Below, one piece after another: positions 4,873-28,689 of a stretch of 64,000 nucleotides of DNA (position 1 is the first letter of the stretch; every line of letters starts with the position of its first letter). Location: the NCBI GenBank assembly GCA_900095095.1, contig FMBT01000395.1, forward strand, positions 62,001 to 126,000. Reading direction: 5' to 3'. The DNA is from Fragilariopsis cylindrus CCMP1102 (Eukaryota > Bacillariophyta > Bacillariophyceae > Bacillariales > Bacillariaceae). The translations under genes were made by a program, and so were the position numbers. Below the pieces are notes generated by a model, which searched no databases, had not been told where the DNA came from, and saw only the letters and a program-made list of their open reading frames with translations.

Positions 4873-4891
4873 TGTAAATAATTTTCATAAA

Positions 4892-5050: not shown

Positions 5051-5168
5051 GTTATACCGCCCCCTATATGCGATGCAGAGCTCCCCTAAATGAAAATTAT
5101 TTAAATCGCGACATTTAAAACTAATCGCGTTGTAACAATTTTCAATTTCCAATGGTGCGTGCGTATTT

Positions 5169-6146
5169 AACTCCGTTAGTGGGGATATACTCTGAAGCTT
5201 TTAAACTAATCACAGCACTCAGTTCTATTTTTACAATTAATTGTATAAACAAAAGTGAGCGCTGTGATTGGACGAGAGACGGAATAATGAGGCATGGGAA
5301 GCGCACCTCGACAGAAAAATCACATAATCCTCGACAGAAAAATCACATAATCCTAGACAATAATAATATAGCGCACCTATGCAGTGAAAGTAGGAATTTT
5401 CCTTATTAACACATTGACAATGGGAATGTATTGAATCGAACCTCCATGAATATCGTTCTATTTAACATACGCTTTAGACGAAATATAGATGGCTATACTC
5501 TTAACAAGGACAAAAAAATTTGGTTGAATATGGTTGAATTTAACTACTTAATATCTCTTGTAACAAGAGACACATGATTTTCGTATCTACGAAAAAACAC
5601 GTCCTACATACCCGGTGATAATGGGTCCTCTCACAATATACCAATAACAATGAAAATTATCGCATTAACTAATATAACAGTAATAGAGACATCTGTACTA
5701 GCACTTTATCTATTAGTCCATTATTAATTTTTTAATATTCCTCTCTTATGCACCTCTTCCTGGCGATTCGAAATTCGCCTGCCACCCATAAATAACCTCA
5801 TAGAATTTTCCCCAAATGACCAAATTCAACCGATTTTTTTTGTCCTTGTTAAGAGTGCAGATATCTATATTTCGTCTGTAAGTTTTTATTAAACAGAGCA
5901 ATATCCATGGAGGTTCGATTCAATACATTCTCATTGTCATGTGTTAGTAAGGAATTTCCCATTCAATTCTACATAATTTTCACGCCGTAAGTAATATTGC
6001 AGGGTTCATAAGTAATGCAATAAAATCGTACCGTGAAGGGTGCAGGTCTGTACACGTCTCCTTCTTCTTTTCTTTAAGTACAAGGGAAGGGGAGGGGGGG
6101 GGGAGGGGGACTTCGTCCCAACCCTCCGGGTTTATACCCCAATGCC
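5169..6146 (+). repeat. Left arm of a 978-bp inverted repeat
   Basis: From AACTCCGTTAGTGGGG to TTTATACCCCAATGCC this segment is the reverse complement of 27597-28574. Both arms are 978 bp, and every block I compared agreed, including a run of ten G/C beside the GGGAAGGGGA tract. It contains a ~570-bp MITE (5392-5960), the ATCACAGCGCTCAC region and a poly-G tract. A short ORF (5152-5409) appears almost identically in the other arm; I read it as repeat sequence, not a gene. Confidence 0.95.
5392..5960. mobile_element. MITE with ~140-bp imperfect terminal inverted repeats
   Basis: The left end (from 5392, TTCCTTATTAACACATTGAC) and right end (to 5960, ending GTTAGTAAGGAATTTCCC) are imperfect inverted copies of each other over about 140 bp, both containing a CTTAACAAGGACAAAAAAA-type block and TCGAACCTCCATG. 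The ~280-bp core has CTCTTGTAACAAGAG, a short palindrome. No transposase is encoded. A second copy sits inside the other large arm (about 27783-28351), and decayed relatives lie at 4745-4872 and 57430-57690. The superfamily is not assigned because the target duplication is unclear. Confidence 0.65.
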
Positions 6147-6802
6147 GATTCGCAAAATGCAGTAGATTTTCAAGCGATAGGCGCGTAGTAAATTAGCGCT
6201 GACTGGGGGTGTATTTGATAAAGGGGAAATCTAATTCGGACCCCCCTTTGAAAAAATTGTATCTTCTTGTGAGTGCGTGACAAGATCAAGATAAAGCGAA
6301 CCAACGAAATACGAAATATCATAATCCAATCAAAATGACACAAAATCACTTACCGTAATATCACATATCACATCGTGCCACATCACATCACATCAAGCAT
6401 CACATCAAGCATCACATCAAACATCACACCAGACATCACATCATGTCTCTTCATTACTGTAATCGATATTATCGATTGATTGATTCATCAATTTATTCCT
6501 CTGCTAATATCACCTAGTAACGCGCACCTGGTAGCGCGAAGTTCTTCTCATTTGAAAGAGAAGATTTGAAAATTTTCACAGAGAAGATTTGAGATATTTG
6601 AAAAAGAAGATATGAAAACTGAAACGATCCAGCGAATGAAAGCAAAATAACTACCAGAAGAAAACAGTCCAAAACACTCACAAAACTCTAGAGCAGTAGA
6701 GACAACGAGTTTGATATAATAATATTGCGACGCTCCTTCCGACAGTTCTGGCAGCGTGTAATAATAGTGTCTCCCTATAATCCATTCTATAATAATATCA
6801 CG
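6147..6802. other. Intergenic region upstream of the triple-repeat gene
   Basis: Begins with AAGCGATAGGCGCG...TAGCGCTGACTGGGGG (6172-6210), a relative of 28682-28720. About 6360-6445 is a run of CATCACATCAAG-type near-decamer repeats. Around 6550-6620 there are AGAAGATTTGA repeats. No gene is seen. Confidence 0.4.
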
Positions 6803-7888
6803 ATGACAGCGATTCTTTTGCTGGTGCTCTTAACAATAACAACATCATCATTGTTGAATAGTAGCAGCGGCGCAACTACATTCGTTGTTAATGGATTTGA
6901 TTTAAGTCGTATTCATCATCATCGGCAAGTAATAGTTTCATTAGGACGAACGACGACGACGAGGATATCGTCATTAGGTCGACAACGACAACGACGAGTT
7001 GGTAATTGTGTTGAACTATGTAGTAATAGTATTGGAGAACTTGGTGAAGACAAAAACCGCATTGGCCAATCGACCTCGTTGGCGCTACTGTCGTCGTCAA
7101 TTATTTCAGTTCGTGGTGGAAGTAGTAGTAGTAGTAGTGAAGCTGTTATTGCTCCAAGTAAGAAAGGAAGAAGACAATTAATACCAATTGGTGTTGCAAT
7201 AATTATTGGTAGTTTCAGTATATTAGAAATAATAGAAAGTTTACGTGAAGAAACAGAACGATACTTTGGTCATGCACATGGTATATTAATTTTATCATTA
7301 ATACGTTTATTTCGTAGTGTGGCTATACTCCAGACAGAAGTTGTTGAATTTGAAGAAGCAACAGAGAAACTGTTCAATCAAAGTGAAGATGATGAAACAG
7401 CATCTGATAAGAAAAAGAAACGAAGATTATCATTGTCAACGATAATTGGTAAATTCATTGTATCAAGAAAGGTTAGTATTACAGCATGTATTATGGCAAG
7501 TATTGCATCATTGGTGGAAGTATATGATGATCTAAAACCTGGTGGACATCATGGAGCTGTATTTTTAGCATTCAGTGAATTAAATTATCAATTACATCGT
7601 TGTCATGATATACGAACACCATCAAAAAGAAAAGAAGACGCAGACAACAAAAATCGAATTATCCAGAGTACATCATCATCACTAACATGGAAAAGATTTA
7701 TTGGACCAACATTATTTATTGCAGCTGCTGTATTTGCTACATATGAATTATACGAAGATTTAAAACCTGGTGCACATCATGCTGTTGCTGTATTAGCACT
7801 AGCAGAATTAGTTGAAAATATAAATCGTTCAAAAGTATTGAAGAAATTGAATAATAATGGGGGTAGGTCTCAAACTACTTTTTCGTAA
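6803..7888 (+). CDS. Secreted or organelle-targeted protein with three helical repeats (unknown family)
   Basis: I start the protein at ATG 6803, giving MTAILLLVLLTITTSS, a clear signal-peptide-like segment. The earlier TTG at 6725 adds nothing recognisable. About 361 residues. After a Ser/Arg-rich region come three related segments of about 30 residues: one around EIIESLREETERYFGHAHG, then VEVYDDLKPGGHHGAVFLA, then YELYEDLKPGAHHAVAVLA. Each has a hydrophobic helix, an acidic pair, a Pro-Gly or equivalent, a His pair and another hydrophobic helix. A Lys-rich linker (DKKKKRR) separates the first two. The pattern suggests paired membrane helices. A plastid location is possible from the signal plus downstream region, but I see no clear plastid cleavage motif. 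Function unknown. Confidence 0.7.
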   Translation: MTAILLLVLLTITTSSLLNSSSGATTFVVNGFDLSRIHHHRQVIVSLGRTTTTRISSLGRQRQRRVGNCVELCSNSIGELGEDKNRIGQSTSLALLSSSIISVRGGSSSSSSEAVIAPSKKGRRQLIPIGVAIIIGSFSILEIIESLREETERYFGHAHGILILSLIRLFRSVAILQTEVVEFEEATEKLFNQSEDDETASDKKKKRRLSLSTIIGKFIVSRKVSITACIMASIASLVEVYDDLKPGGHHGAVFLAFSELNYQLHRCHDIRTPSKRKEDADNKNRIIQSTSSSLTWKRFIGPTLFIAAAVFATYELYEDLKPGAHHAVAVLALAELVENINRSKVLKKLNNNGGRSQTTFS

Positions 7889-7959
7889 ATATATCTTTTT
7901 AGGACCAAACGTCAGGAGAAAAGTATGTAGCAGGAGTACAGTATATTACAGTAAAGATT

Positions 7960-8247
7960 AACTAATATATATATATATATATATATAGAGTACAAATACA
8001 GCTATACTCGAGACAAAATGCTTGTTTTTGTCTCGAGAAAATGCTATGTACATTGGAATGGAAAAACAAGTGTTGCAAAAATAAATAAAAATTGAACAAG
8101 AACAGTTCAGTACAGTACAGTACAGGAATAACCTTAGTAAATACACTTAATACACATATTTTCTTGTTTTCTTCCTCCTTTAATTGCTAAATAAATGTAG
8201 TATGAGATGCATCAAAGCAAGACATATCATACTATCTTAATACAAGT

Positions 8248-8282
<35 letters not shown>

Positions 8283-8290
8283 TGTATGAT
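7960..8290. repeat. TA microsatellites and a 12-bp hairpin
   Basis: AT dinucleotide runs occupy about 7965-7987 and 8252-8279. Between them CTCGAGACAAAA (8007-8018) pairs exactly with TTTTGTCTCGAG (8026-8037) across a 7-base loop. It lies about 120 bp after the stop of the upstream gene and could act in 3'-end formation, but that is inference. AGTAC pentamers lie at 8107-8122. Confidence 0.6.
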
Positions 8291-8652
8291 ATAGTATATG
8301 AGATAGTAATATGCGAATGGGTTTTTACATAAAGGCACTCGAGACGTGCCCCGTTTCGAACTTACTCGAGGAGTGTCTGCGTGAGTCATTAATAAACAGA
8401 CCGGTGGGACTAACGTCAATACATGTAGACCGGTGGACGAGCGTTTTGTTTTTTTAGATGCACATCGATTAGCGGTTTTGGCAGTAATAATGAGCCGATA
8501 ACACACTTCTACTATAGCAAGCAGCTCTATAGCTAGGCCGTGAGAAACTTAACCAACGTAGTAACTCGTAATCTTAGTGTTCCACTCGTTCACTAAATCA
8601 GAATAGATAGAAAGGAACACCAGACTTATTACTAGTACATTTATAAGATAAT

Positions 8653-9351
8653 ATGTCGTCGATCGATAATACCGAAATAACTAAGAGAAATCACTATGAC
8701 CAAAAACTTAAAGTTGTTTTCAGATCAATGGCAATTGTTTTATCTATATGGGCTATCACGATACCAATACTCTACATTCAAGTCAAGCATATGGAGAACG
8801 CTAATGCTTTTGATTATACTCTCGTTACTGTGGAAGACTACGTAGCACGTACTTTATTCGGCACTAACGAAAGTATAATTGACATCACTGATGATACAGT
8901 CAAGGCAAATGCAACATTTCATCAAAAAATTCATGTCGGGAATAGAAGAATTTTCAACAGCGCCGAGTTATCAAATTTTGAATTGTTAATGCAATCGTTC
9001 ACGAGTAAATTCGTTACTGCTAATAATTACGATTGCCTTCAAATCAATAGTAATGAAGATATCAATGATACAATAATAACATTAGCGACTGTGAAGAAGC
9101 AATCGGAGGACATTGCTATAGACGACACAAACGACGAGGATACTGCTAGTAACAATACGACATCTTTTGTCATCAATCTAGTATATGTTGTATCCTTTGA
9201 AAGTATTGTTTGCAATGATGTGAAGTATTATCCTCTTTTGTTTCAAAATTATACGAACGGACATCTTAATATTGTTTTGAGGGATCTACAAATACTAGAT
9301 CTCAATGTAACACAAATTGAAAAGGCTAAACGACCCGTTTATAATAAATAG
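8653..9351 (+). CDS. Single-pass type II membrane protein, unknown
   Basis: A 232-residue ORF with a well-placed ATG and a stop at TAG. Residues 1-22 are polar and basic (KLKVVFRS), followed by one hydrophobic segment of about 20 residues (MAIVLSIWAITIPILYIQV), then a long polar, acidic, probably lumenal domain with several N-glycosylation sequons (NES, NAT, NNT, NVT) and two Cys. This is the layout of type II Golgi or secretory-pathway proteins. No enzyme motif is recognised. Codon use is less repetitive than in the flanking DNA, which supports coding. It could also be a lineage-specific surface protein. Confidence 0.55.
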   Translation: MSSIDNTEITKRNHYDQKLKVVFRSMAIVLSIWAITIPILYIQVKHMENANAFDYTLVTVEDYVARTLFGTNESIIDITDDTVKANATFHQKIHVGNRRIFNSAELSNFELLMQSFTSKFVTANNYDCLQINSNEDINDTIITLATVKKQSEDIAIDDTNDEDTASNNTTSFVINLVYVVSFESIVCNDVKYYPLLFQNYTNGHLNIVLRDLQILDLNVTQIEKAKRPVYNK

Positions 9352-10050
9352 GAGACACGATGACATCAGTAGTCAGGTCATTACTTTGAAGTATCAACAG
9401 TAATATACTAAACGCGTAGATATTTCATTAAGCTGGTCACAATATATATACTTCATTCACGAATTTTATAATATGTAGTAAATAATTTAACGTGTTGTAT
9501 CACTCTCTATTTTTTAAGTTACCACCATTCACTGAATTTAGTGTATATCTAGAGAAGCAGGAACGACATGAGACTTGGGTAAGCAATTGTAAACTTCATT
9601 GTTATTTATTCATACTATATTTATATTTTGATGTTGGAACAGGAAGTTCTTACCAACATGACATTGATTATTAGATGCTCAAGCTATGACTCTTTTCCGA
9701 TGTTCACAATGATAATGATCACATTGTTTCTATATACGCGTGTAGTATTCAATACTCAAAAGAAAAAAATGTTTTTGAATCACGCGAGCAAAAATCATTG
9801 TCCTCGATATGGAACTGTTATCTGCGCTATTTATTGTCGCCGTAACGTATCACATTGGAGTTCGATTTTGTTTTTGAATGAATCCAACGGTAGCAAAAAT
9901 CCTTATTTTTGGTTTCGGTATCGATCTTTCACTTGTCCTCGATATTAAGTCGCCGCGTACGTATCATAATATTGTTGTTAGCGATTTTGTCTAAATGCAG
10001 GGGAGAAAAAAACTTTCACTTGATCCTCGATGAAACCGTTATCAAAGCTA
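9352..10050. other. Intergenic
   Basis: No gene is supported. Between about 9795 and 9990 the blocks TTGTCCTCGATAT and GTCGCCG(T/C)...ACGTATCA occur twice in the same order, suggesting a small local duplication upstream of the Cys-rich pair. Confidence 0.35.
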
Positions 10051-10330
10051 TTTCGATACGCGATGACATTTCGAGAAAGCGTTATGCACTGCGCGAACAC
10101 GACTTGAGCGAAGACCCGTAACCAGTGAGCAATAGTACACTGCGTGCAGAATTAGATCGCATACAGTACAACTCGATCGTTCGAAAAGCAGATTCGAAAA
10201 GAAAAACTTCATCTCTCACTACAATTTACTAGTATAACAATCATATCATAAAATCAAAAATCAAGAATCAAAAATCCGATAAACAAATCGAATTAATCAT
10301 AAAATCAACGATCCAAAATCAAAAAAAAAA

Positions 10331-10942
10331 ATGAAATTCTCCATTACAACTTCCATTATCCTAATCGCTACCGCAGTCTTTCCAGTGGAAGGAAAGGACA
10401 TCTTTGCAAAATTTTACCGCACTCCAGCGCCAGTACCAACGCCAACGCCAACGCCAGCGCCAACGCCAACGCCAACGCCGACCAATAATCCGAATGACGA
10501 GCCTTCAAAGAATCCATATGAAGCTGATTCTAATAAATGCGTGAATTATCCTGATGGTAAGACAGATGATGATTGTCTAAATGGTTCATATAATGGGCTA
10601 TTTGACGGAGAATATTACAGTCATTCCTACAAATGTACAGAAGGTGAAGGACATGCATGCTGTCATAGCACAGTTGAAAACCAAAGCAATGTACAGGATT
10701 TGGGACAGTGTACACGTAATCATCAACCTGATGCTTCAGGTTGTATCCGATATAATGATGCAAGCAGTGATGAAAACTGTTACAATACCGACTTGTTCAA
10801 TGGCTTTGATTTTTCATATAGCTGTACGGAAGGTGAACCATATGTATGTTGTGATACAGATGTAGGTAACTTGAGTAATGTACAGAATCAGGGACAATGT
10901 CAACGTAATAATAACAGAAGAAATCTTAGACGCAGGGCATAA
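10331..10942 (+). CDS. Secreted Cys-rich protein with two six-Cys repeats (copy 1)
   Basis: A 203-residue protein. Residues 1-22 (MKFSITTSIILIATAVFPVEG) are a signal peptide. Next is a Pro/Thr spacer of PTPTPTPA repeats (about 35-55), then two related domains with the pattern C-x11-C-x14..19-C-x7-CC-x15-C. Both contain SNVQ(D/N)(L/Q)GQC followed by RN. The C terminus is strongly basic, RRNLRRRA, and identical in the neighbouring paralogue. Six Cys per domain suggests three disulfides in an extracellular fold. I do not recognise the family. It could be a cell-wall or defence-type secreted protein, but nothing in the sequence decides this. It is followed by its tandem copy on the same strand. 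Confidence 0.8.
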   Translation: MKFSITTSIILIATAVFPVEGKDIFAKFYRTPAPVPTPTPTPAPTPTPTPTNNPNDEPSKNPYEADSNKCVNYPDGKTDDDCLNGSYNGLFDGEYYSHSYKCTEGEGHACCHSTVENQSNVQDLGQCTRNHQPDASGCIRYNDASSDENCYNTDLFNGFDFSYSCTEGEPYVCCDTDVGNLSNVQNQGQCQRNNNRRNLRRRA

Positions 10943-11362
10943 TTTGTTATTTACAAACAAGATAATGATTATAACGCATACATAATATCATAATGAACGT
11001 ACGCATGCATAACTATATATATAGAATATATATTATCATATATATAAATTGAATTCAAACTAATAATAGTGATAATCTACGCTAATTAATTTTTCTTGTT
11101 CTCGTCGTAGTACAACTCTTTACCAAAGCTTCTCATTTCTTAGTAGAAGCGTGTAATTCGATACACACTTCTGCTGTCTAAGTAAACCGAAATCTGCATA
11201 GAATGCACTTATCTAGTTCCATCTATCGATCCGCACGCGATGACATTTCTAGAAGCAAGCGCAATGCAAAGCAAAAAAAATCTTTAGCATGAATTGAAAC
11301 CCGCGGAAAATCAAAATCAACAGGACATTTCAGTCGCGTGCGAAACCAGCACTGCGTGTAGG

Positions 11363-11393
11363 AGTGATCAAAAAAGAGCTTTTTTTGATCACT
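11363..11393. repeat. 13-bp perfect hairpin in the promoter region of copy 2
   Basis: AGTGATCAAAAAA (11363-11375) and TTTTTTGATCACT (11381-11393) pair exactly around GAGCT. It lies about 180 bp before the ATG of the second Cys-rich gene and is absent from the corresponding region of the first, so it is a difference between otherwise duplicated promoters. Confidence 0.7.
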
Positions 11394-11570
11394 TGCAGTA
11401 CTGTACAACTGATGCATCTCATTCACATTCGATTCGATCGTTCAAAACGAAGATTCGAAAAAACTCTTCATTTCTTCAATAGTTATAATCATATATCATA
11501 AAATCAAAAATCAACAATCCAATAAACAAACAAATCAAAAAAAATCAACGATCCAAAATCAAAAAACACA

Positions 11571-12158
11571 ATGAAACTCTCCGTTACTACTTCCATCATC
11601 TTAATCGCTACCTCAGTCTTTCCAGTGGAAGGACAGGGTGCAGGTATCTTTATTAGTTTTCAAAACAGTCCAGTTCTAGCGCCAACACCAAAACCAAGCA
11701 ACAATCCGACTGAGCAGCCCTCAAACAATCAATATGAAGCTAATGCTAATGGTTGTGTGAATTATCGTCAAGGTACAACAGATGATTTTTGTCAAAATGC
11801 CAGCTTAAATAATAAGCTGTTTGAAGGTAATCGTTACAGACATTCCTACGAATGTGATAAAGGATATGCATGCTGTGAAAGCACAATTGAAAACCAAAGC
11901 AATGTGCAGGATTTAGGACAGTGTACTCGTAATTATCAAGAAGATGATTTAGGTTGTATAAAATATGATGATGGTTATAGTGACCAAGGATGTTTTAATG
12001 CAAAGGGATTTAATGGCAATGATTATTCATATAGTTGTCAAGGAGGTGATAAACCATATATCTGTTGTAATTCAGAAGAAGATTTTAAAAGTAATGTACA
12101 GAATCAGGGACAATGTCAACGTAATAGTAACAGAAGAAATCTAAGACGCAGAGCATAA
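11571..12158 (+). CDS. Secreted Cys-rich protein with two six-Cys repeats (copy 2)
   Basis: A 195-residue paralogue of the gene at 10331. It has the same signal peptide (MKLSVTTSIILIATSVFPVEG), a shorter Pro-rich spacer (LAPTPKPSNNP) without the PTPTP expansion, the same two domains with all twelve Cys kept, SNVQ(D/N)(L/Q)GQC blocks in both, and the same RRNLRRRA end. Spacing between Cys 2 and 3 differs by one or two residues. Both copies are open throughout, so both are probably functional. The shorter spacer fits expansion or contraction of the ACGCCA hexamer repeat in copy 1. Confidence 0.8.
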   Translation: MKLSVTTSIILIATSVFPVEGQGAGIFISFQNSPVLAPTPKPSNNPTEQPSNNQYEANANGCVNYRQGTTDDFCQNASLNNKLFEGNRYRHSYECDKGYACCESTIENQSNVQDLGQCTRNYQEDDLGCIKYDDGYSDQGCFNAKGFNGNDYSYSCQGGDKPYICCNSEEDFKSNVQNQGQCQRNSNRRNLRRRA

Positions 12159-12345
12159 ATAAATAGAAGAAATTCACAAACAAGATAATGATAATAACGC
12201 ATATATACAGTAGTAAAATAAACGTACACATGACATGCATAACTATTAATTATTAATTAATATATAGTATATAAATTAAATTCAAATTAAATGAAAAACG
12301 AAAACAAAAAATCAATGCTAATTAATTTTTCTTCTTCTCGTCCTA

Positions 12346-12461
12346 GAGTACAAGACGTAGAGTGCAAGAGTGAGATTGAGCTGAGGGATCGGGGGATATT
12401 GTATATTTGAGAAGATAATTAAGTGATGGGATGAAAAAACTTCTCTCAAACACACACACAA

Positions 12462-12505
<44 letters not shown>

Positions 12506-13320
12506 AATTGCATGGAATAAATTAAACTAAACGCAGCCATACATCCATACATCCATACAAAACTATCATTGATTATATGTAGGTATAGCGATACGGTATA
12601 TTCTATCTACAAGTAACGATATCAATGCAAATTAATCGATGTTTACATTTTCCTCACTAGCTCACTCTGTCACAGCTACAGTAGTCGTAAGTCGTAACGG
12701 GCATTGAAGGGTACTACTACCTTTACAGTAAACGAAACGAAACGAAACGAAAAAAAAAATGAAATGAAATGAAATGAAATGAAATGAAATGAAACGAGGT
12801 GACCAAACACAAACGAAACGAAACGAAACGAAGTGACCAAAAACGAGAAATGAACGATTCACTCGACTCGACTCGACTCACTCGACTCAATCGATTCTTT
12901 ATCTAAATCTATCATGCGATCGTCACGTTTGTTTTTTTGTATTATCGTCGTCTGGTATGCGTACGTACGAACGGACCTCTCCTTACTGCGCGACCTACTT
13001 ACACGCGTTACCAAACGCTTTTGCTCGTCTGCTTCATGTTTCTAAAACGACCCCACAGCCACACACAAGGCACAATCAACAAAGGAATGCCTACTACTGT
13101 ATGTGCCTTTTTTAATTTAGGCAAAGTTGCGGCGTGCGGTAACTGCACAACTAACATCGTCCTTCATCATTATCCATCGTCTCATCAGCAATCAAATCGC
13201 CACAGACATTACGTGATTTTGAGTAATAGAAGATTCATAAAGTAGTAGTGTAGATTGAGACTACGATATATTGATCACACAGCTCCCGGTAAAAGAGAGA
13301 TCTACTGTATCTGACAATAG
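12346..13320. other. Intergenic, rich in tetra- and pentanucleotide repeats
   Basis: A GAAA array lies at about 12461-12507. GAAAC and GAAAT pentamer arrays occupy about 12733-12830, and ACTCG pentamers about 12861-12888. ATG-initiated frames on either strand here only read these repeats. 12890-13320 is unique sequence without a recognisable gene and should hold the promoter of the J-protein gene. Confidence 0.6.
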
Positions 13321-14950
13321 ATGATGATGGCCCAACGAAATATTGTAGTATGGATGTGCCTGATCGTGATTTCATTGTTAGCAATGACTGGAACTGTCTT
13401 TGTTTCCGCCGATGAGTCATCCACCTCTGAATCAACCACTGAAGGTGGAGGAGAACAACAGGCTGCACCAACTGATACACCCACTGAACCATTAGTGGAT
13501 ATGAATAATCGTAAATTAGCACGTGAATATAAAGATGATTTTGATGTGAAAAGTCATTTTGATTGGGGGACCTATTATGATCCGAAATCGATTTTTTGTG
13601 GACCAAAATATGATTGTTATGGTATATTAGGATTTGATTACGAATCCTTTAATAATGAAAAACCAACTCAAAAACAAATCACGAAACGTTATCGTGCAAT
13701 ATCAAGACATTGGCATCCAGATAAATCTAAACATAAGGATGCCAAAGAACGGTTTGTGGTACGTATAAATAATATAAATAGAGTGTGTGTGTTGTGTAAT
13801 TTGTGTTTTTGCGTAGAACGTTTTGTATATATTATATTCCAATTGATTACAAGTATACTGGCACCAGTCTGAAAAGGATTAGACCCCTTTTAACAATATG
13901 TAGATTCAGTTTTATTGGAATTACCGTATGATGGATGATATAATATAATATAATATAATAAAATATAAAATACTGTTGTTGTTTTGACTCTCTCGTTCAT
14001 CGTCCGCATTCATCCGTACCTATTTCGTCATCCGATCGTCATCGCCATCGCATCGACTCACACATCTTTTCATGTTATTCACTTGTCGCTTTACACTCAA
14101 CAAACACCCTTCATACATACCTATCCTACAGAAAATTGCACGTGCCTATGAAGTATTAACAAAAGATGAATCACGGAAAGAATATGATATGATGAGATAT
14201 AATCAAGAAGCATATTATAAAAAATATGGTTCCAATGTTATGTTTACATTTGCACCCAAGACCGATACATTATTAGTGATAATTTTTGTACTTTTGTTTG
14301 TGAATGGATTTGTTTATTTTGCACAATATAATAAATGGCATAAGGTATGTTCACGTTTAGCAAAAGCTGCTATCGAGGATTGGAATCCAAGTCAAGGTGG
14401 TACATATGAAAGTAAAGAATTACGTGATCATGCTATTCAACTTATGGAAGCAACAATTAAAGATAAATCGGAGGATACAACAACAACTTCTACAAAAGAT
14501 AGTAAGAAGAAATCATCCAAAACCACCACCAAAGAAAAGAAAGAAAAATTAAATGATGATTTACGTCCAATTATTGAAAAATTAGCTTATGATATCGTTG
14601 ATTTTGGTGCAGGATTTCATAAACCGACATGGAAAGATTTAGTGGTATTGAAATTAGCTATCTTTCCATATCATTTTGCTATTGGTAGCGTCTGGCAAAT
14701 TCAATATTGGATCAACCGTTTACAAAAAAAACCATTTTCGGAGAATGAAAAATCGGTATTAACACAACGTAGTGTGGGACATATTATTTGGGAATTTGCC
14801 ACAGAGGAAGAAAAGACGACAATGGTGAAACGTGAATTATGGAACTTAAAAAATTTAAAAGAATGGAATGACGAACGTGAATTTCAAAAATTATCGAAAA
14901 AGGAACAAAAACAATATAAAGAAATGATGAAACGTGAAAAACAAAATTAA
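13321..14950 (+). CDS. DNAJC25: DNAJC25-like ER membrane J-protein, two exons
   Basis: Exon 1 is 13321-13758 and exon 2 is 14132-14950, with a GT-AG intron of 373 bp (GTACGT...CTACAG) in phase 0. The spliced protein is about 418 residues. It has an N-terminal hydrophobic signal (VVWMCLIVISLLAMTG), an acidic spacer, then FCGPKYDCYGILGF opening a J domain with the HPD motif (HWHPDKS) that stimulates Hsp70 ATPase. The intron lies exactly within the J domain: ERFV joins KIARAYEVLTKDESRKEYD. After EEYY-like (QEAYYKKYG) and APKTD comes a membrane segment (LLVIIFVLLFVNGFVYF). This order is diagnostic of DNAJC25. The J domain should face the ER lumen, working with BiP. The Lys-rich region near DSKKKSSK and the C-terminal KKEQKQYKEMMKREKQN are cytosolic by this model. 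The gene is intact. Confidence 0.88.
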
Positions 14951-16300
14951 ACAGTATATAACTAATAACCAAAAAAAATAATACAAAACAAACAAATAAA
15001 GATATGAATGAATGCAAAACAAACTTACAACAAAGCTAGAAGAAAAAGAACTAAACAACACACACGGTGAATACCAAAAAAAAATGAACGGCATAACACA
15101 CATAGTCGTACTACTCATCCTACACACACACACGTAACTAGTACAGTAATAAATAAATAAATAATAATAAATAACATAGCACGCATTAAACTAAACTCAT
15201 ACTATAATATAATCGCACTAACATATTAACTACTGTAGTGTTGTCTAGTGTTGTATTGTAGATTCAGCTGCACTTCTTTGCCTTGTGCTGTTTGAGTGAG
15301 TGAGTAGGGTCATTCTTTCACACCAAACCAAGGTGAAGAAGAAACACATGTGTATGATATAAAAAGTGGGTCCATCTAGCACCGTCATAATCAATCTGTC
15401 AAAATGTTGTAGACAAAATGTTGATGATGATGGTATTTCTTGTCATTGGGTAGGCTATCTATCTTGTGGAGCCTATGAAGGAAGGCATTGGAAGAATATC
15501 TGGTCAGTTGACAGAAGAAGCTGTAGTGTATGGTAGAGTAGCAGATGGTTTAATTGTAGGAAGCACATATTATATAGGGGGATGAAGACCAGCAAAGGAT
15601 GGTTCAATTATTCCTGCTGTGGTACTGGTCTATCACTCTACCGGTGGATTCACTCCTGTAAAATATGCAGGGTCTGTCTGTTCCTGTCATTTTCTGTTGT
15701 ACACACTCCTTACACTGTAAACTTCTATGTGTAAAGGTCTTGATGTGTACTTATGATGTGAGAGAATGTGTTGTTCACTTCTGAAGGTTATACTAGCTAG
15801 TAATGAGATCCACAGCAACTCATCTACCGTACTGTATACTACAATGTCTCAATAATTTATCACTGTCGTGTACAGTAGGTACCAATAGAAGTGATATTAT
15901 TGATGTTGATGTTGATATTGATATTGATATTGATATTGATATTGATATTGATATTGATTTGACTGATTGATTCAGCCATTCATTCATTCACTCATTCATT
16001 CATTTGTCGCTCTATCCAATCAATTGATTGTTCATCTGTATAGTAATTCATTCTTCTTCTTCTTCTTCTTCTCTTTCCAAAAAGTGAGGAGTATGGTGTG
16101 TGTTAGTTGCTGTGGGCATGGGCATGACCATGGATGACAAAGCAATACAAATTACAATACACAAGAATTTAAGTCATGTTGTGTCATTATGTTGCTTTCT
16201 TAGACAAGACATGGTTTCTCTACTTTTCTTCAATTTTCCAAAATTGATCAAAAGGAAAATATTTTTCCTGAAACTATAAAAAAGCAAGGCTACAGGCAAT
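14951..16300. other. Intergenic with microsatellites
   Basis: No ORF of note. GATATT hexamers fill about 15899-15958, CATT repeats about 15975-16005, and a CTT run about 16050-16072. ATAA-type repeats lie at 15148-15172. Nothing else is identified. Confidence 0.5.
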
Positions 16301-17675: not shown

Positions 17676-20600
17676 CAGCTTTCAAGCTATAAGGATTTTT
17701 TTGCCGATTTCTAATTTTTTTTACTAGTTAATTCACGTGTTATTTTTCCAAAAAAAATAATTTAACTTTGAAAATATAGCGAATTTTCGGTGGTTGATTG
17801 CTAGATAAATACAAGATCATTCAGCCTGTTAGATGGCGCTAGATGGACTTGAACTAGGCACCTCAGTTAATAATATTATCTTTTCAACCAGTTAAACCAA
17901 TAACTGTGGAAGATTTTATTACGCTGAAGTTAGACAACGGATTTGAGTACATAACCCATAAAGCGCGCTAAATTAACACGCGCTAAATAGCAGTGATTTT
18001 CGTTCGAATCAAGATTGATAATGGGAAATATACGAGTATCGACACACATGCTAATAGTATGTGGTCTTCCTCTCAACTACAGTAAAAAAGAAGATAACGG
18101 ACATGATCTCCATTAAACAGAGGTTATATATTACCTGGTTAAGTATCTATTCATTTGTCATACCAGAAATACCAGAAACAACACTACATTCAGTACTACT
18201 GCCTGGTGGAGTTTTCAGTACGAATTCAGCACCGGCATGATACTTTATATGACACTCAACTGCAACACCATCCTTAACTGCATTACAAAGCCACATATCG
18301 TATCCCTTCTCAATAGTACACTCTTCACACTTATAGTTTGTTCTATGTGCTCTTCTTGGTTTCAGTGGTTTATTCAATCAAGGGCACAACTTGTACTTGC
18401 AGTATACCTTATTAGGAAGCACCATTGCTAATGATTGATGACGTCTCCCCGGCAGTTGCTTCATTACTTTACGAAATTTCTTCTTCTGTCTATAGATAGT
18501 ACTTTTATCTATAGACGATATAGATGATTGGGGAGTACGTGCATGCATTCCTCCAGTCCCATGGGCTCCTGGAGAAGAAAAGGGTTGGATAACTGAATCA
18601 GATCTTATACTTCTCCCATCCACAGATGTAGAAGTAGTAATATCCTTGGTGGCGCTTGGAGGAGGTCCCGAATCCCGCTGTCACATACGATCACCTCTTT
18701 GAAGAAGAGAGTGTGTCAAATTATGTATGCATTCTTTCAAAGGCATACATTTCCTGTCAGGATGAACCATCTTATAAATAACACAGTACAGCTTGTAAGC
18801 ATTGTTAAGATTCATATTGAAATAACGGGCTGCTAACTTGGGCGCCCAACCATGCAGATGCGATTCAGTAGAGAGATCATACTTGGCTTCAGCACCATTG
18901 CCTTTATCAATCTTGTGATAGGTGTTGCAGTAGTCAATCTGTTGAGCATTGCAATCAACATCAGTTTGGTCCCTAGATCTTTTCCCAGTGACTGGATCTC
19001 TTACTCGTCTCTTCATTCCACCCTCAACAATAGTAGGAGAGTGAAAATTAGAAATTGTCTTGACAAAGTTGTTGTCAGCCCAAACAGCATGCACAATTGG
19101 CTTGGTCTTGTGTTGGTAGAGAAGAGACTTGTGTGTGCCCTTCACGATTTCCTTCTCCTTGATAGCAAGCTTGCCTAACTTTCCACCACCAGTCCGAGAC
19201 GATTGACAAGTACCAACCATGTTAATACCCCACTCCTCTCTTCCAACTTGACACATGGCATCACCCATGTAAGCAGAATCCATGACAACACAATGACCTT
19301 TGTGTTTGTAAGGATCTAGCATTAGGTCATAGAGAGACACCATCTTGAGTTTCGTTGCAGTATGGCTGCAACGAACATCGACATCCTCATCAAATCTACC
19401 ACCATAGACCCTAGCAAACAACTTGTATGTATGTAGGGGACCTTCAGTGATACAGACAGTATGTAGAGTAGCACCAGTTCGAATTGGTTTGGGCTCTGGT
19501 CCTATAGTCATGACACTATGATACCAGCCAGCCACTCGACTCTCATCAGTTGTGATCCATCTTCCAGCATGAACTACAGCTTGCCACCGCTTGTAAGTAG
19601 TAAGTAGAAGAAGAAGAAGCAAGGTAGGTTAGTAATTGATTCGAAACATGATAATAACAACAACAACAACACTACATACCTTATTATATGCATCTTCTAA
19701 TATACCAAACTTCAATCGATGTACTGCCATATTAGGGTCAGCATCAACTTTAGTTTCGTATATATCCAACCAATCATCAGCTCCCATAAGGTCCCAATCA
19801 TCACTGTAGTGAAGGCAGCTAGTCATATCTTCCAAAGCATTCTTTGGCATTGATTCTTGAATCGATGGTACTGCATTGAAGATTTCCCTTGTACAGAATA
19901 TTTGATTGATTGATCGATTACCACAAAGCATCTTAGCAAGCATGGCTCCATAGAATCGAGCTACATGGTCAGCTTCAATCTCATTCTCCCAACTGTAGTA
20001 CTTGGGAGCCCATGCATCTTCAATCATTCTTTTCTTCATATAATTTCTCATTCTTGCAGATTGAAATTCAAATAAAGATTGATCATTATCATCACCAAAC
20101 TTTGGAAGACACCATTCAAATACTTTCTCATACCTAATCTCTCTCCTATCATCCATTAACAGTCGGATCTCCTCTGGTGTTATGTTAACACTGAACTCAT
20201 TGTTTCGACCAGACCATTCAATCGGTTCAATAGGACGTCCACCACTACCATCTTCCTCCACTCGAGTCCATTCCTCAGTTGGTGTTAGACTGTACATGGT
20301 TCCATCCTCAGTTACAATCTCATCATCTCCTTGTCGTACGACTTCAAAAGGGAGATTGAATGATTCAATGGTAGAGTGCTGTGTGTTGCAGTATTCAAGG
20401 ATTGCATCATATGCAATGAGATACTGATCATCATCATCTTGATCATCCAATTCAATAAACCATTTTTGGTTCACTATATCAAACGACATTATCTTACCAT
20501 CATGTTTATATGATCCAGTATAACCAACCCACCAGTGGTCGGGTATCTTCACAGGTAGTCCTACTAGTGAATCGGCCCATTCTACATCAATTTTCTTTGT

Positions 20601-21198
20601 CCTAGGTGCCATTGTAGTTGAATATTTTTAATTATATTTCTAATTGGATTGTAATATTATGAAAATACGTAAAATGCGTGGTAAAGTTAACGAAAATAGC
20701 TAGTGACTAAATATTCAAAGCTAGTAGTTACTTAGTATGAAAATTTGAAATATTTAGTTGAAAAAAAGGATTTGTTAGTAAATTTTACTAGTTATTTTCC
20801 CAAAAGTTTACAAGACTGACCATTTGACTCATATTTTTGATGCGTTGATCGCCTCTTTTTTGTGTGACTTCAACAATTTTTCAAATTTTGAGTCTTGGAC
20901 GCGAGTCACATCAGAATATTTGACCAAAAATGGCCGTTGCGCGACACATTTTCGCGTCTCTCCGATCCAAACTGTTCTGGTCACTAATTAAGTAAGTACG
21001 GGCACGTGAGGGTATCCGTTGGGCTGTTACAAACTCCTCGGGAGTAGTATTAAGTATATAAAAAGACACGTGCCCTTGAACGGAGATGCACTGTGTCTCA
21101 ATAGGGGGGTGTAAGTCCATTTTTTGAGGGAGAAACACCCCAAAGAAAAAAGGGGCTCTTTTTCCTGCCCCATATATGGGGCAGTAGCTTGAAAGCTG
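17676..21198 (-). mobile_element. piggyBac-superfamily transposon with TTAA target duplication
   Basis: A 3523-bp element. TTAA flanks it at 17672-17675 and 21199-21202. Its ends are the 14-bp inverted repeat CAGCTTTCAAGCTA (17676-17689) and its exact complement (21185-21198). A second short palindrome, TGCCCCATATATGGGGCA, is subterminal on the right (about 21167-21184). The transposase is on the minus strand. Removing the element and one TTAA restores the sequence seen uninterrupted in copy B at 54159-54162, so insertion at TTAA is directly supported. Confidence 0.95.
18147..20612 (-). pseudogene. piggyBac transposase, two exons, C-terminal part interrupted
   Basis: Exon 1 (20612-19680, 311 codons) starts MAPRTKKIDVEWADSLVG. 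A GT-AG intron (19679-19590) joins NK to RWQAVVHAGRW in phase 0. Exon 2 runs from 19589 to 18147. The catalytic Asp triad of the DDE_Tnp_1_7 family is visible: TTDES (about D326), VVMDSAYMG (about D415) and HAVWADNN (about D483). The N-terminal region has SFNLPFE and a W-rich segment. Downstream of the catalytic core two in-frame TGA codons occur: one after LLQRGDRM (about 18681) and one after YCKYKLCP (about 18378). They separate the core from a C-terminal segment with CEEC, WLCN and CH spacing typical of the piggyBac Cys-rich zinc-binding end. Without read-through the DNA-binding tail is lost, so I treat it as recently inactivated. Confidence 0.85.
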
Positions 21199-21684
21199 TT
21201 AAAACACACAATTTCTCTAAGTGCCAAGTGCGCATGTAATCAAGGCTGTGATGCACCATCAATACAGACCTAACAACCTTAAAAGATTATATGGAGCTTA
21301 ACATTATACCTACCTATGGGTACAAAGTCCAACTATTGCTTAGGGCTCTAGGGCTCTATAGGGAGGTTAGGAAGGTGTCAGGGTGTGCTAAGCCCCAAAA
21401 AGGGTTATTTAGGCCCCAAAACAGGTTTTCTCCTTTTAGCGCTCACATCAGCATGGTCCTGCCCATAGCTCGCCAAGTTTATATTGCCTTTGGTGTATAT
21501 TTACCACCTTCAGGTGTAAAGAACGCATACCTAGCGCCCCAAAGTCCGGTCCAGGTATTCATCCTATGCATATTAAGCTCAGATTATACCATCTGATTGG
21601 GACTTTATACATGCTAGGATGGGTTAGAATGCCAGAAAGTGGAGTGGTACAGGTAGCAATTACCACAGAACATGATTTAGTTCT

Positions 21685-22962
21685 TTTGTGTTATTTAAGA
21701 TAAACTAAATAAGTACAAGTCTGTCCTTTGACAAGAAGTTAAAGTGCTACTAATTAGGTACTTTTTTTGGCTCACAAGTCTTACTGTTTCTAATTAACTA
21801 AAAAGCCTGAAAAATTGAAAGTGTGTTCAAAAATGTGTAAAGTTAAAGTGTTTTGCCTGTATATCACGTGCCAGCACAAGTATCATTTGGACTGTAACAG
21901 GCCCTAATAATAATTGCCAAAAGGGAGACTCAGAAAAAATCTACTATATACTGTACACAATAATAATCAAATAAATAATAGCTATGTTTTACCTCTGCTC
22001 TACTACTACAAATCAACCCTCCTAAAAGATGTTCCATGAAAAATCAGGCATACATAATATGTTATACAGGATAAAAATCTAGTAGAGGTTGCATTGAGGA
22101 AAAGGACAACAATATTGTTGTATAGATCCACTCCTTTCGTACTACCCAAATAGTATGAAGCACAAAGCAACAACAAGAAATGCTGCTGCTGTGTGACCAT
22201 ATATGTTGCGCACTTCTTGTAAACTACTTTATTGGCATATCACTGCTACTCTTTTCTGGCAACCAAACACAATAAAAAACAACAACAGCAGCAGCAGCAG
22301 CAGCAGCAAAAAGGAAGCAAAGGAAGCATGGGGTTCAATCTTACCTAGATACTAGATATGGAACCATATATGAATGGCTGCACTGCACCGCTGATAACAT
22401 GACATTGGACAACTTATGTCTCTATCAGATACAAGTAACCAAGTTCAGTAGAAAGCATCAAAGTCAATCATGTATGTCTACTACAATACAATACTCAGGA
22501 TTAATCATCCTACCGTCTTTTTCTTTACCATGGTGTGCATAAGTTTTGTGCTATGCTTTAAAGCACCAATAAAATCACCATCAGCTGCGTACCCCTTGCC
22601 ATGTCCCTTGCTTGGGCGCATGACCTATCATACCTAATATCAAGTAGACACACAAGCACACATAAACAAAGAAGGAAACCCCCCTGCCATATGTACTAGC
22701 TATATTAGCTAGAGGTAGCATAATATTTGTGTTTTCATAATGACTAGACTACAGCAGGTGATGGTAGGAATATCATAGTATAATATATACCAATTAAAAA
22801 AGGGCGAACATTCCTTGGACATTTAAAACATATTATTAAATATTATAGTGCTAGCTAGCTAACATTATTATTGTTGTTGCTTATTACGTACACGAACTGA
22901 CATGCATATGTATTCTTCTTTCTTTTTCACACTGGGTGGATTTATTGAACTGACATGCTTAC
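21685..22962. other. Intergenic
   Basis: A CAG trinucleotide run lies at about 22284-22308. ORFs here are short and show no domain. 22640-22960 lies downstream of the Cys-rich surface gene (transcribed leftward) and should hold its 3' end and terminator. Confidence 0.4.
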
Positions 22963-25588
22963 TTACAGAATGGAAATGATGAGTAATAACGACGACGACG
23001 CCATAACAACGACAGCAGGTGCAGATATTGCGATAATATTCTTCTGGTAGAATAAGGAGGCACTACCACCGCTTGCTTCTAATGTTTCGCCATTATTTGT
23101 TGTTGCAATAGCACCACCTTCTTTTACGCCGTAACCTTCACCAACACTACTAGTAGCATCAGTAGCATCAGTAGCATCAGTAGCATCAGTGGTATCAGTG
23201 GCATCATTAGCATCAGTAGCATCAGTAGTATCAGTATCAGAATCAGTAGTAGTACCAGTAGTAGTAGCTTCATCGACGTATTTACAATCAGTTATGACTT
23301 CACCAGATGAATCATAATGTACAGCCGTACAACCACATAAATCAACAATACATGATACAGCACCAGAACATGATTTACCATCATTATTAATACATGGATC
23401 AACCGTACATTCTACTTGTTTTTGTGATCCATCCTCACATGGTGTACCACAAATTCTTGTACATGTACCATCATCAACATCATCACCACCGCATGATAAA
23501 TAACCAATACAACGTTTATCATCAAATAAATTGATTGGATTCGAACAATCACTGTTACTATTACAACGACCCATATCCATACATACACCCTGTGCACAAT
23601 AGGATCCATTTCGACGTTCGTCTCCACCTTCCGGTAATGGAATTAACTCCGTTCCTTCATAGGTAATACAATCAGTATTTGTTTTACATGTTGTGGACAT
23701 TGGTGCTTCCATAGCAGAAGCAGAATCAGGAGGAGTATTACTATCATTATTGCTACTTTGACATACTTGTGTACACTGTCCATCAATACATGATAATGTA
23801 CCCACACATGTTGATATAGCAAACATATTATTAATATTGAAACAATTTGGTCGAGTGGAACAACTTCCCATTTTTAAACATGTACCAGATATAATTGCAT
23901 CACAATATTCGGTACCATCATTCAAGCATTCATTACTAGTTCTACATGATGTTGCAGGTGTTGTTATTGCTACTGGTACTTCTTTTTCCTCCTCTTCCTC
24001 TTCTTCTTCTATTGGAATTAAAGTGTCTTGAATTTCTTCTTCAGTATCAGTATCAGTATCAGTATCAGTATCAGTAGTAATACCATCACAAATTTTTGAA
24101 CATTGTCCATCAACAGTACAACTTAATGTACCAATACATTGTACAATAGCATATATATTATTCATATTTGTACAATCATCTACAATATTACATTGTCCCA
24201 TTTGTAAACAAATACCATCACCTGTAATTTCATTATCACAATATTCATTATCAATATTACAATCATTATTCACTGTACATGGTGTTGTAGTATCACAAAT
24301 TTGTGAACAGGTACCTTCCACACATTCTAATGTACCAATACACATATCAATAGCAAATGGACTATTATCAATATTATTAGTACAATCAGTATTATAGGAA
24401 CAACTACCAACAGGTAAACAGATATTATCAGATAATGTACAGTAGTCAATACCAATACCACCAACACAATCACTGCTTGAAGAACAACTTGCTAGTACAT
24501 CATCTTCATCATCAGCAAAAAGTGCATCATTATCATTTGGACCACAATTCATAGAGCATCGTCCTTCATCCGTACATTCCATATTTCCCTAAAGTAAAAA
24601 GTTTTAGAAAAAAAAAGTGATGTGATGTGATATGAGTGAGTGAGTGAGTTGACGAGAACGATGCGGTTTCACAATTGGATCGTTATCATTATCGTTATCG
24701 AATTCAAATTCCAAATTTCAAATTTGAATTGCGTGCTGGCCCGATTGTGTGATTGCGTTTACTATGCAATTCATCTTCACATCATCCCCGTTCCTACCGG
24801 TATCTATTTGCTATTTCTTTGTGATGATGACGATTTTTTGTTTTCGAACGCATCACACACGTTCTCGATTGAATTGGTCTGGATTGGATTGAATATAATC
24901 CCGATTTAGATATAGATATATCGGATTTTGATTTCGATAACGTATACACGATCGCAAACTTCGCAATTTCAAATGTTTTCAAATCTAGCAGAAAAAGAAA
25001 GAACTATAAACTTACCATACATGCAGCAACTGGAAAAAAATTATCCATATTCATGGTACAATCATCAATGATTAAACAATCACCCATTGGCATACATGTA
25101 CTATCACTACCACAATAATATTCATTAGGTCCACTACCACTACCATTATCCATCATACTACTCATATTCATATTCATATTCATATTACATTCCGAACTTG
25201 TCATACAAGAAGAAAGAGTCTCATTACTATTGTTCGTAGGATCCTTTTCCACTACAGGCACCAAACTACAATTCATTAAACACATTCCATCATCTGTACA
25301 TTCCATTGTACCCATGCATAATGTTACAGGATATGGACCATTATTTATATTACTACAATCTATGACAGCATTATTTTCTGCACATGAACCAATTGCAAGA
25401 CATGTCTTGGATGTATTACTACAATATGAAACACCTTCGACACATGTATTATCATCTACTGCTGCTGTTGGGTCACAATCTTGAGCTAACGTCAACGTAG
25501 TCAACGTCGTTGTTGTCGCAAGTAGAAGAAGAAGACTAGTACCCAAAAGAGTAGTGATATTAGGTAGTAGTAGTAGTGACAGTTTCAT
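22963..25588 (-). CDS. Multi-module Cys-rich surface protein with GPI-like tail, two exons
   Basis: Exon 1 is 25588-25016 (191 codons) and exon 2 is 24588-22963; the intron 25015-24589 is GT-AG (GTAAGT...CTTTAG, phase 0). The spliced protein is about 732 residues. It begins with a signal peptide (MKLSLLLLPNITTLLGTSLL). Six modules of about 65-85 residues follow, each with the order C...C...YC...C(L/M)xxGxC...DC/NC...C(M/I/V)Gx(M/L)xC...GxC...(N/I/V)C. The intron falls inside module 2, where ACM joins GNMECTDEGRC and restores the pattern, which confirms the splice. A seventh Cys cluster (CEDGSQKQVEC...) is diverged. Linkers are Asp/Thr and Glu runs. After a DATDATDATD stretch the protein ends in a hydrophobic segment (VVVMASSSLLLIISIL), as GPI-anchored proteins do. 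Likely cell-surface or wall protein; function unknown. Confidence 0.8.
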
Positions 25589-26372
25589 TCTTTTTGATTT
25601 TGATCCTTTCTTTTATTAGTATTTATGGATTGATGCCCCTTTTTTTGGATAATGATGTATACGGGTATGTGTCGTTATTGTGATCTTGGTTGTTTGTGAA
25701 TGAATCAAATCTTTGTTGCTTTGTTCGTGTTTTTTTAAACGTGATTAGAAAAACAAATCTTTGTTTGTGTTCTTCGCTTGCTTCCTTTTTGGTACCAGTT
25801 AAAAAGAGATGCAGTCTCCGCGCCTTTTGTTTTTGACACGATACAAGACAGACATCATACTAATAACGTACACATTTAAAAAAGCGAAGGAACGTTTTCT
25901 GTATGTGCTACGCACTTGAAGTATACATGCATGCTCGCTCGGTCTATACACAACAAATTATTCTGGCGTAAAATTAATTTAAATATGACCATGAGACAAA
26001 ATTTATTCATGGCAAGTGATGTTCCGTTCCATTATGATTTCAAAGGACGCTTAAAATTAGCACGAGAAAATGTAAATATGGGCCCGCATGTGTGTTACAT
26101 GAAAAATATTTTCTATTCATCGCCTGTTCATGACACGCGAATTTTCACTGTTATTTTTTAATGTAAAAATGGTGAATGGAACAACGGATTAATTTATATA
26201 CGCCGAAAAGCTACTACAATGTAGACAATGTAGAACAGTAGTGGAACAACAACATTGTTGACGAATTGAATTATTTTCGGCTCAATGTATATTTATAGAT
26301 ACGGTATCGGTATCAATTATTTAATAATTAAGCACGGCAATGAATCAATCAATAGATCGCAAATAGTATCAC
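25589..26372. other. Intergenic between two divergent-function secreted genes
   Basis: Holds the upstream region of the multi-module gene (25589-25900) and the downstream region of the gene at 26373. The + frame 25916-26161 is open for 81 codons (GRLKLARENVNMGPHVCYM) but lacks a recognisable domain or supporting signals; I do not call it. Confidence 0.35.
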
Positions 26373-27008
26373 TTAGTTCAACACGGTGAAAGCAACAACG
26401 GTAGTGGCTGCTACCAAACCACCAAGGAACTTTGTAGAAGTAACTTTATGGCCACTCGAGACCAAACTTTCACAATAGATTGATCCATTGTCTTTAATGG
26501 CGGTATACATTTCACTATCCGCAATGTCTGTACTATCACCATCAACCGCATTGCAGCTTTCCGTATCAGCAAGACAAACTCCGTTATTTGAAGTAGCCAT
26601 CGTAACAACATCATCCCCACCAAATGCTCCATAAGTACACTCTACCGTCTTATCAGGAGTCGCAGTAAAGGTCATGCCATCTACTTTATCACATTCTTCA
26701 CTCCATGCTTTGCATAAATCAGCAGAATACGACCACGTAAACGAATCTTCGCCTTCACTTATGACGTTTGTGCGGGTTCCGGAAGACGCCCAGGCAGCTT
26801 GGGCATCGATCAAGGCTTGGTTGCCTGCATACCCTTTAATAGTATCATCCAAGCATCCTTTATTGGCTTTAAATTGACCCCATCCTTCCTTCATCGCACA
26901 CAAAAATCCACATTCTTCATCGGCAGAAGTAGTATCTGTTGTGTTCTCCATATCTTCACAGTGTACACCAGCGACGGCAAGGCTTAAAAGAATAGTAGTA
27001 AGTTTCAT
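26373..27008 (-). CDS. Small secreted Cys-domain protein with GPI-like tail
   Basis: A 211-residue protein. Residues 1-18 (MKLTTILLSLAVAGVHCE) are a signal peptide. The mature part has about ten Cys in an order shared with the protein at 43426-44304: GC(L/E)xD, then ALxDAxxAW, a segment ending YSAD or YDAD, a Cys about ten residues later, (V/S)EC or SC, NxGxC, (S/A)C and a final C. The last 18 residues (FLGGLVAATTVVAFTVLN) are hydrophobic with a preceding small-residue region, typical of a GPI signal. No intron is needed. I know of no named family. Paralogy over about 17 kb shows it is a real multi-copy family. Confidence 0.75.
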   Translation of the reverse strand: MKLTTILLSLAVAGVHCEDMENTTDTTSADEECGFLCAMKEGWGQFKANKGCLDDTIKGYAGNQALIDAQAAWASSGTRTNVISEGEDSFTWSYSADLCKAWSEECDKVDGMTFTATPDKTVECTYGAFGGDDVVTMATSNNGVCLADTESCNAVDGDSTDIADSEMYTAIKDNGSIYCESLVSSGHKVTSTKFLGGLVAATTVVAFTVLN

Positions 27009-27596
27009 ATTGAATTCTTGTTTAAATTATATATATTTATTAGTTGTACTGTAAGTAGTTGTTTCAAAAGTGTATCGTTATAATTTAATGAGAGAAGTTC
27101 TTGTATGTTATACGGTACAAGTATTCAATATTTTTGGGTGTACTAGTACAGTCAACTCGCGTTAACAAATACAGGCCGTGTAAACCGGTTTTGTATTTGT
27201 TAAGATTCCGAGATATATTTATAAGTTTTACGCTACCAAAACGCGAAACGTGACCCTACGCACTTCAATGCGAAATCGAATGGATTTACCAATACCGTAT
27301 ATGTTCATACTCGACTTTACTGTGAATGTACAGTACGTGACCCTTCGCACTTTAATGCGAAATCGATGCTTCGTCATTGAAACCACACGAAATAATGAAT
27401 GAAACCATCGAATGAATTTACCAATACCGTATACGCTCATACGCGACTAGTATGTACGTGAACCCTTCGCAGTTAAATTTTTTGAATGGGAGCGTGGCAG
27501 TGTGTAACTAAACAGCAAATACCGTTATATTTATTTGCTTTATTTATCGTTTATAACGGCGATAAGATAAAGCAAATAAAATACCTTGGTTACCTA
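27009..27596. other. Intergenic with ~100-bp imperfect direct repeats
   Basis: The block GTGACCC(T)(A/T)CGCACTT(C/T)AATGCGAAATCGA followed by ATTTACCAATACCGTATA(T/C)G occurs at about 27250-27310 and again at about 27339-27440. No gene is seen. The right arm of the large inverted repeat begins at 27597. Confidence 0.5.
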
Positions 27597-28574
27597 GGCA
27601 TTGGGGTATAAACCCGGAGGGTTGGGACGAAGTCCCCCTCCCCCCCCCCTCCCCTTCCCTTGTACTTAAAGAAAAGAAGAAGGAGACGTGTACAGACCTG
27701 CACCCTTCACGGTACGATTTTATTGCATTACTTATGAACCCTGCAATATTACTTACGGCGTGAAAATTATGTAGAATTGAATGGGAAATTCCTTACTAAC
27801 ACATGACAATGAGAATGTATTGAATCGAACCTCCATGGATATTGCTCTGTTTAATAAAAACTTACAGACGAAATATAGATATCTGCACTCTTAACAAGGA
27901 CAAAAAAAATCGGTTGAATTTGGTCATTTGGGGAAAATTCTATGAGGTTATTTATGGGTGGCAGGCGAATTTCGAATCGCCAGGAAGAGGTGCATAAGAG
28001 AGGAATATTAAAAAATTAATAATGGACTAATAGATAAAGTGCTAGTACAGATGTCTCTATTACTGTTATATTAGTTAATGCGATAATTTTCATTGTTATT
28101 GGTATATTGTGAGAGGACCCATTATCACCGGGTATGTAGGACGTGTTTTTTCGTAGATACGAAAATCATGTGTCTCTTGTTACAAGAGATATTAAGTAGT
28201 TAAATTCAACCATATTCAACCAAATTTTTTTGTCCTTGTTAAGAGTATAGCCATCTATATTTCGTCTAAAGCGTATGTTAAATAGAACGATATTCATGGA
28301 GGTTCGATTCAATACATTCCCATTGTCAATGTGTTAATAAGGAAAATTCCTACTTTCACTGCATAGGTGCGCTATATTATTATTGTCTAGGATTATGTGA
28401 TTTTTCTGTCGAGGATTATGTGATTTTTCTGTCGAGGTGCGCTTCCCATGCCTCATTATTCCGTCTCTCGTCCAATCACAGCGCTCACTTTTGTTTATAC
28501 AATTAATTGTAAAAATAGAACTGAGTGCTGTGATTAGTTTAAAAGCTTCAGAGTATATCCCCACTAACGGAGTT
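27597..28574 (-). repeat. Right arm of the 978-bp inverted repeat
   Basis: Reverse complement of 5169-6146 with the same length and no difference in any block I compared. It begins GGCATTGGGGTATAAACCC and ends CCACTAACGGAGTT. The MITE copy is at about 27783-28351. Sequence outside the two arms is unrelated at the joints, and I find no matching target duplication, so these look like two copies of one segment in opposite orientation and not the ends of a single intact transposon. Confidence 0.95.
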
Positions 28575-28578
28575 CGGG

Positions 28579-28689
28579 CTATCGCTTGAAAATTAAGACG
28601 CGCTAAAGGACGGAGAGTGATTCGAAAACTTTCAAAATCTCCTTTTATTTAAATAATTTCCTGTTGTTTGGAAATTTTCAAGCGATAGC
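28579..28689. repeat. 111-bp fold-back with 17-bp perfect arms
   Basis: GCTATCGCTTGAAAATT (28579-28595) pairs exactly with AATTTTCAAGCGATAGC (28673-28689). The right half plus its flank (to about 28740, ...TAGCGCTGACTGGAGG) is a relative of 6164-6235, so this is a member of another short repeat family. A GT dinucleotide run follows at 28762-28792. Confidence 0.75.

Follow-up and report, generated by a model that had tools for sequence, protein, structure and literature searches.

The window analysed here is a stretch of 64,000 nucleotides on contig C195 of the Fragilariopsis cylindrus genome assembly (67.9 Mb in 818 contigs), in which two inverted repeats, referred to as arms A and B, bracket a gene-bearing segment (Table 1). 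Gene-like regions were called from open reading frames (ORFs) of at least 90 codons. Nine ORFs of the segment, 183-539 codons in length, are host-gene-like; two of them (13321-13872 and 14072-14950) probably represent exons of a single DnaJ gene; the neighbours 22963-24582 and 25004-25588 may belong to one gene. A Pfam scan of six of the nine returned a family match only for the DnaJ pair, one of the two being below the curated cut-off. A preliminary description of this DNA had counted at least seven genes and two nested transposons between the repeats: the gene count is plausible in view of the 7-8 ORF regions, Pfam support being confined to the DnaJ pair, and of the transposons one transposase region is seen in the segment (18681-20612), with a DDE_Tnp_1_7 match in one of two ORFs. 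This domain is presumably typical of piggyBac. Two related piggyBac-like elements are present in the window as a whole: in the one at 16298-21668 the transposase region is split over two ORFs, and the one at 52386-54944 has inverted ends (52386-52606 and 54725-54944). The neighbouring, similar ORFs 10331-10942 and 11571-12158 encode small proteins with N termini that look signal-like by eye.

Both joints of the segment fall between long ORFs, a distance of ~580 bases separating the arms from the nearest ORF starts inside, at 6725 and 27008; judged from the ORFs, no gene is visibly broken by the joints. Outside arm B, the protein at 28950-29678 carries DUF6824 (Pfam), a domain found in diatoms. 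None of the 10 ORFs scanned with Pfam matched a recombinase, and the segment occurs in a single orientation in the assembly; the window holds no tRNA genes and no Rfam matches at gathering score.

Table 1. Coordinates of the repeats, the candidate target duplication and the segment between the arms (positions in the window)
Feature	Position	Strand	Remarks
Arm A	5169..6146	+	Identical to arm B; 3' end same as in six other genomic copies
Inner repeat of arm A	5367..5980	+	Arm positions 199-812; imperfect 137-bp inverted ends, 85%
Arm B	27597..28574	-	Inverted copy of arm A, identical
Inner repeat of arm B	27763..28376	-	Same inner repeat, from self-comparison and genome search
Smaller MITE piece, 63-67 bp	6147..6213	+	Directly inside arm A; contiguous with the larger piece in paralogues
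Larger MITE piece, 148 bp	28575..28722	-	Directly outside arm B; 79-96% identity to near-complete matches elsewhere
GTATTT, candidate original 6-bp target duplication, copy 1	5163..5168	+	Adjoins the 5' side of arm A
GTATTT, candidate original 6-bp target duplication, copy 2	27579..27584	-	12 bases past the 3' end of arm B
Segment between the arms, 21,450 bp	6147..27596	.	Inversion read from the split MITE; 7-8 gene-like ORF regions and a piggyBac-like element

In a self-comparison of the window, the arms are identical at 978 of 978 bases with 0 gaps, and the identity extends through the G-rich tract. Because of its length the match is not due to chance; no other identical inverted match in the window is longer than a 58-bp palindrome (1335-1392). 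The coordinates given for the two repeats in the preliminary description are exact to the base, and the self-alignment suggested there, with zero mismatches, turns their apparent identity into an exact one. A genome search placed the full-length arm at two sites, both inside the window (40 of 376 candidates scored), and neither arm contains an ORF of at least 90 codons. The window also holds two tandem arrays: one at 526-1242, with ~3.7 copies of a 190-base unit, and one at 59518-59958, which shows shifts of ~60 bases in the self-comparison.

To judge from its relatives elsewhere in the genome, each arm is a copy of a small dispersed mobile element without long ORFs. With the last 162 arm bases as query, nine matches besides the two arms were obtained, six of which stop exactly at the arm's last base (C507, C275, C674, C87, C644 and C210), the other three falling short of it (C680 and two in C337). 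The first 192 arm bases returned matches near the 5' end from C507, C275 and C87, while C612 and C134 match this part only further in. Copies of the outer element elsewhere are 86-94% identical to the arms. Target duplications of 6 bp, read by eye, accompany two of the three other copies with both ends: a perfect TCGGTT in C87 and CTCTAC in C275, both of which place the 5' end of the element at arm position 6. The flanks in C275 are alike over 15 bases with two mismatches, so that the duplication may exceed 6 bases and the 5' end may be further in. In C507, the nearest member of the subfamily, no clear target duplication is visible by eye (GTCCTT versus AATCTT), and the 6-bp rule may thus not hold for the subfamily of the arms. 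Arm A starts with five bases, AACTC, ahead of the 5' end seen in the other copies; since both arms have AACTC beyond the point at which the element starts in C275 and C87, some flanking sequence seems to have been copied along with the second arm.

Within each arm lies an inner repeat (arm positions ~199-812) with at least 40 other genomic matches of 81-87% identity (40 of 376 candidates scored); it is dispersed and commoner than the outer element, and the outer parts of the arm belong to a smaller family than it does. The orientation of the inner repeat relative to the outer parts is opposite in C275, C87, C134 and C507 (loci L009, L068, L070 and L074). Arm bases 199-223 are absent from the copies of C275, C87 and C134 and present in C507; these missing bases rule out a simple flip of the inner repeat for the former three.

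The right-hand site carries the trace of an earlier order. The two pieces of repeat that adjoin arm B on its outer and arm A on its inner side are, by alignment with their paralogues, parts of one short repeat that resembles Stowaway MITEs. The alignment comprised 14 loci at 12 distinct places, chosen from the match lists of the two pieces, that of the larger piece naming further places; in all 12 places the pieces are contiguous through the joint, with neither an insert nor an arm between them. The MITE starts with TACTTCCTCC in 10 and ends with GGAGGAAGTA in 11 of the 12. C484 and C108 miss ~10 bases at the joint, C202 runs only 12 bases beyond it, and the match in C260 starts 49 bases ahead of it. 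As assembled, the cut point reads GATAGCCCG / ATTCGC, and the duplication at this joint amounts to 0-1 base (a single G on both sides); as C307 has two G at the cut point, even the one base may be no duplication. A 15-base direct repeat, ATTTTCAAGCGATAG, which flanks the second copy when the inner flanks are exchanged back, was first read as a target duplication; this reading is ruled out by the intact MITE of C667, which has the same motif pair, the second one diverged. With one MITE piece now at either end of the segment, the assembled order bears the mark of an inversion.

At the left-hand site, the GTATTT pair may be the original target duplication of the element copy, here termed X, now divided between the two arms. 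One word outside arm A and the other inside arm B is the arrangement expected if X originally stood at the left site. The chance of a pair of this type at offsets of 0-12 is ~0.005 at random places of the window, per comparison and uncorrected for the four flank pairs compared; for left flanks at 4000-5167, it was 4 in 1168. A genome search for an arm-free paralogue of the left site, made with the joined flanks of this site (320 bases), gave no match across the joint (15 of 15 candidates scored). All four flanks have a full-length match on this contig only, parts of them matching repeats elsewhere, and by full-length flank matches no second haplotype of the locus was found in the assembly. An 8-base word, ATTTTCAA, is common to both flanks of arm A as it stands and does not adjoin the arm.

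One giant or composite transposon is ruled out by the outer flanks, which end with ATTT and begin with CGGG and hence show no duplication, and by the position of the MITE pieces on opposite sides of the two arms; the preliminary description was right in denying the joints a matching target duplication and the locus the status of a single giant transposon. Two independent ordinary insertions are disfavoured by the lack of a 6-bp target duplication at the MITE joint.

In its assembled form the segment is a probably young inversion with a duplicated mobile element, one copy at each joint, a known kind of chromosome change. The preferred reading, to which slightly less than an even chance is given, is that one recent event inverted the 21.45 kb and duplicated the element at both joints. 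X would originally have lain between the left outer flank and the present right inner flank; in a single event, the MITE 21 kb away would have been cut cleanly in two, the intervening DNA inverted and X left at both joints. Breaks around X, either staggered or in sister chromatids, with subsequent joining of the ends could be one route; replication template switching could be another, with the same outcome. We infer that X initially occupied the left site alone, that duplication and inversion were one event and that this event is young. As the second arm is without signs of ordinary insertion, it is more likely to have resulted from the inversion than to have caused it. The preliminary description had noted that such arms allow repeated inversion by homologous recombination, or gene conversion; what stands of this is that, by the split MITE, the assembled segment runs the opposite way to its order prior to the arrival of the second arm.

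In favour of such a one-step event, the arms agree at 978 of 978 bases, while other copies of the outer element differ by 6% or more; a recent single event would explain the arm identity as well as conversion or repeated inversion. Against it, the duplicated piece is itself a transposable element in opposite orientations, the GTATTT pair is matched only at an offset of 12 bases and with an uncorrected chance value, and the arm stops precisely at the 3' end of the element (as in the six other copies), a coincidence for random breaks. The exact 3' border suggests some role of the element's own ends, and there is a slim chance that a small element family makes inversions by an aberrant end reaction, with an exact 3' end, an imprecise 5' end, a self-copy to the second joint and no target duplication. 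A further flip of the segment, through recombination between the arms, is possible.

Staggered breaks have precedents in Drosophila subobscura: according to PMC5080602, inverted duplications occur there only at the joints of the inverted arrangement and are ascribed to such breaks, and the duplicated sequence of O8 stems from one breakpoint only. As in O4 and O8, the duplicated sequence is inverted at both joints, here at 978 of 978 bases; unlike them, the duplicate is a mobile element, one of its borders coincides with the exact end of that element, and the inverted segment, at 21 kb, is small. PMC12368964 reserves staggered breaks for duplicates that are not transposable elements in opposite orientations, whereas here the duplicate is such an element and other copies share its 3' end; staggered breaks also imply a single copy, at one breakpoint, before inversion, and none of the 12 paralogues of the MITE side read in this genome contains an arm. 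The same paper takes an inverted duplication of transposable elements in opposite orientation as evidence for ectopic recombination, not end joining. Two near-identical opposite copies would then have been at both sites beforehand, ectopic homologous recombination between them would have inverted the segment, maybe repeatedly, and gene conversion would keep the arms identical. The opposite orientation, the full identity over 978 bp and the transposon nature of the arms fit this course, and so does the split MITE, equally well, if the second copy had inserted in the MITE first; opposite copies at the joints are its sign in PMC12368964, and Galileo inversions in Drosophila arose so (PMC2775673). 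It is nevertheless somewhat unlikely: after the inner flanks are swapped back, no 6-bp duplication adjoins either copy, the MITE offering 0-1 base; five bases common to the arms lie beyond the start of the element in C275 and C87; and other copies are at least 6% different, so that a second insertion could be identical only if it, too, was very recent or if conversion preserved the identity. The Galileo inversions of Drosophila buzzatii (PMC2775673) likewise have two opposite copies of one transposon at the joints, but they show exchanged target duplications, whereas here there are no adjoining 6-bp pairs and one offset GTATTT pair (arm A 5'/arm B 3'); Galileo copies are chimeric, which could not show in identical arms.

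Aberrant transposition, that is, hybrid element insertion or alternative transposition, is an improbable source of the joints. Events of this kind are known for the P element, and a case is reported from maize (PMC8225341). Identical, non-chimeric copies are predicted by this course in PMC2775673, and identical element copies at both joints are a likeness to hybrid element insertion; the 3' border on the exact element end would be explained as well. However, a target duplication of the MITE is predicted at the new joints (arm A 3' and arm B 5'), where 0-1 base is found, and the 5' joint of arm B carries the five foreign bases AACTC. Decidedly improbable is a reading in which the arms are real and the assembly chose the orientation of the DNA between them or mixed two haplotypes, the true order possibly being X at both sites, uninverted. 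Identical inverted arms of 978 bp need reads longer than the arms for ordering, and sequence errors may remain, since near-identical contig pieces differ only by indels (L027/L028, with five gap openings and no mismatch over 1693 bases); in a further pair, L043/L044, two mismatches and one gap opening occur over 3081 bases. Both pairs can be read as left-over haplotypes or assembly duplicates, and indels in the assembly are accordingly to be read with care. Against an error of orientation, there is no N in the window or in the 95 loci examined, one contig of 1.02 Mb suggests long reads, and the full-length flank matches are confined to this contig.

Among the literature matches listed, which comprised papers on diatom organelles and genomes and on inversions in other organisms, no title mentions an inversion in the nuclear genome of a diatom. 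At the present locus the inversion joints are still identical, and thanks to the split MITE a single genome suffices to read the previous order; should that order persist in other strains, the locus could reveal how diatom inversions arise and whether the 978-bp arms keep flipping the gene block. PMC6604790 gives a substitution rate of 4.77e-10 per site per generation for Phaeodactylum. At this rate, zero differences in 978 sites correspond to an upper 95% bound of ~3.2 million cell generations, assuming that the Phaeodactylum rate applies, that there was no gene conversion and that the assembly was faithfully polished.
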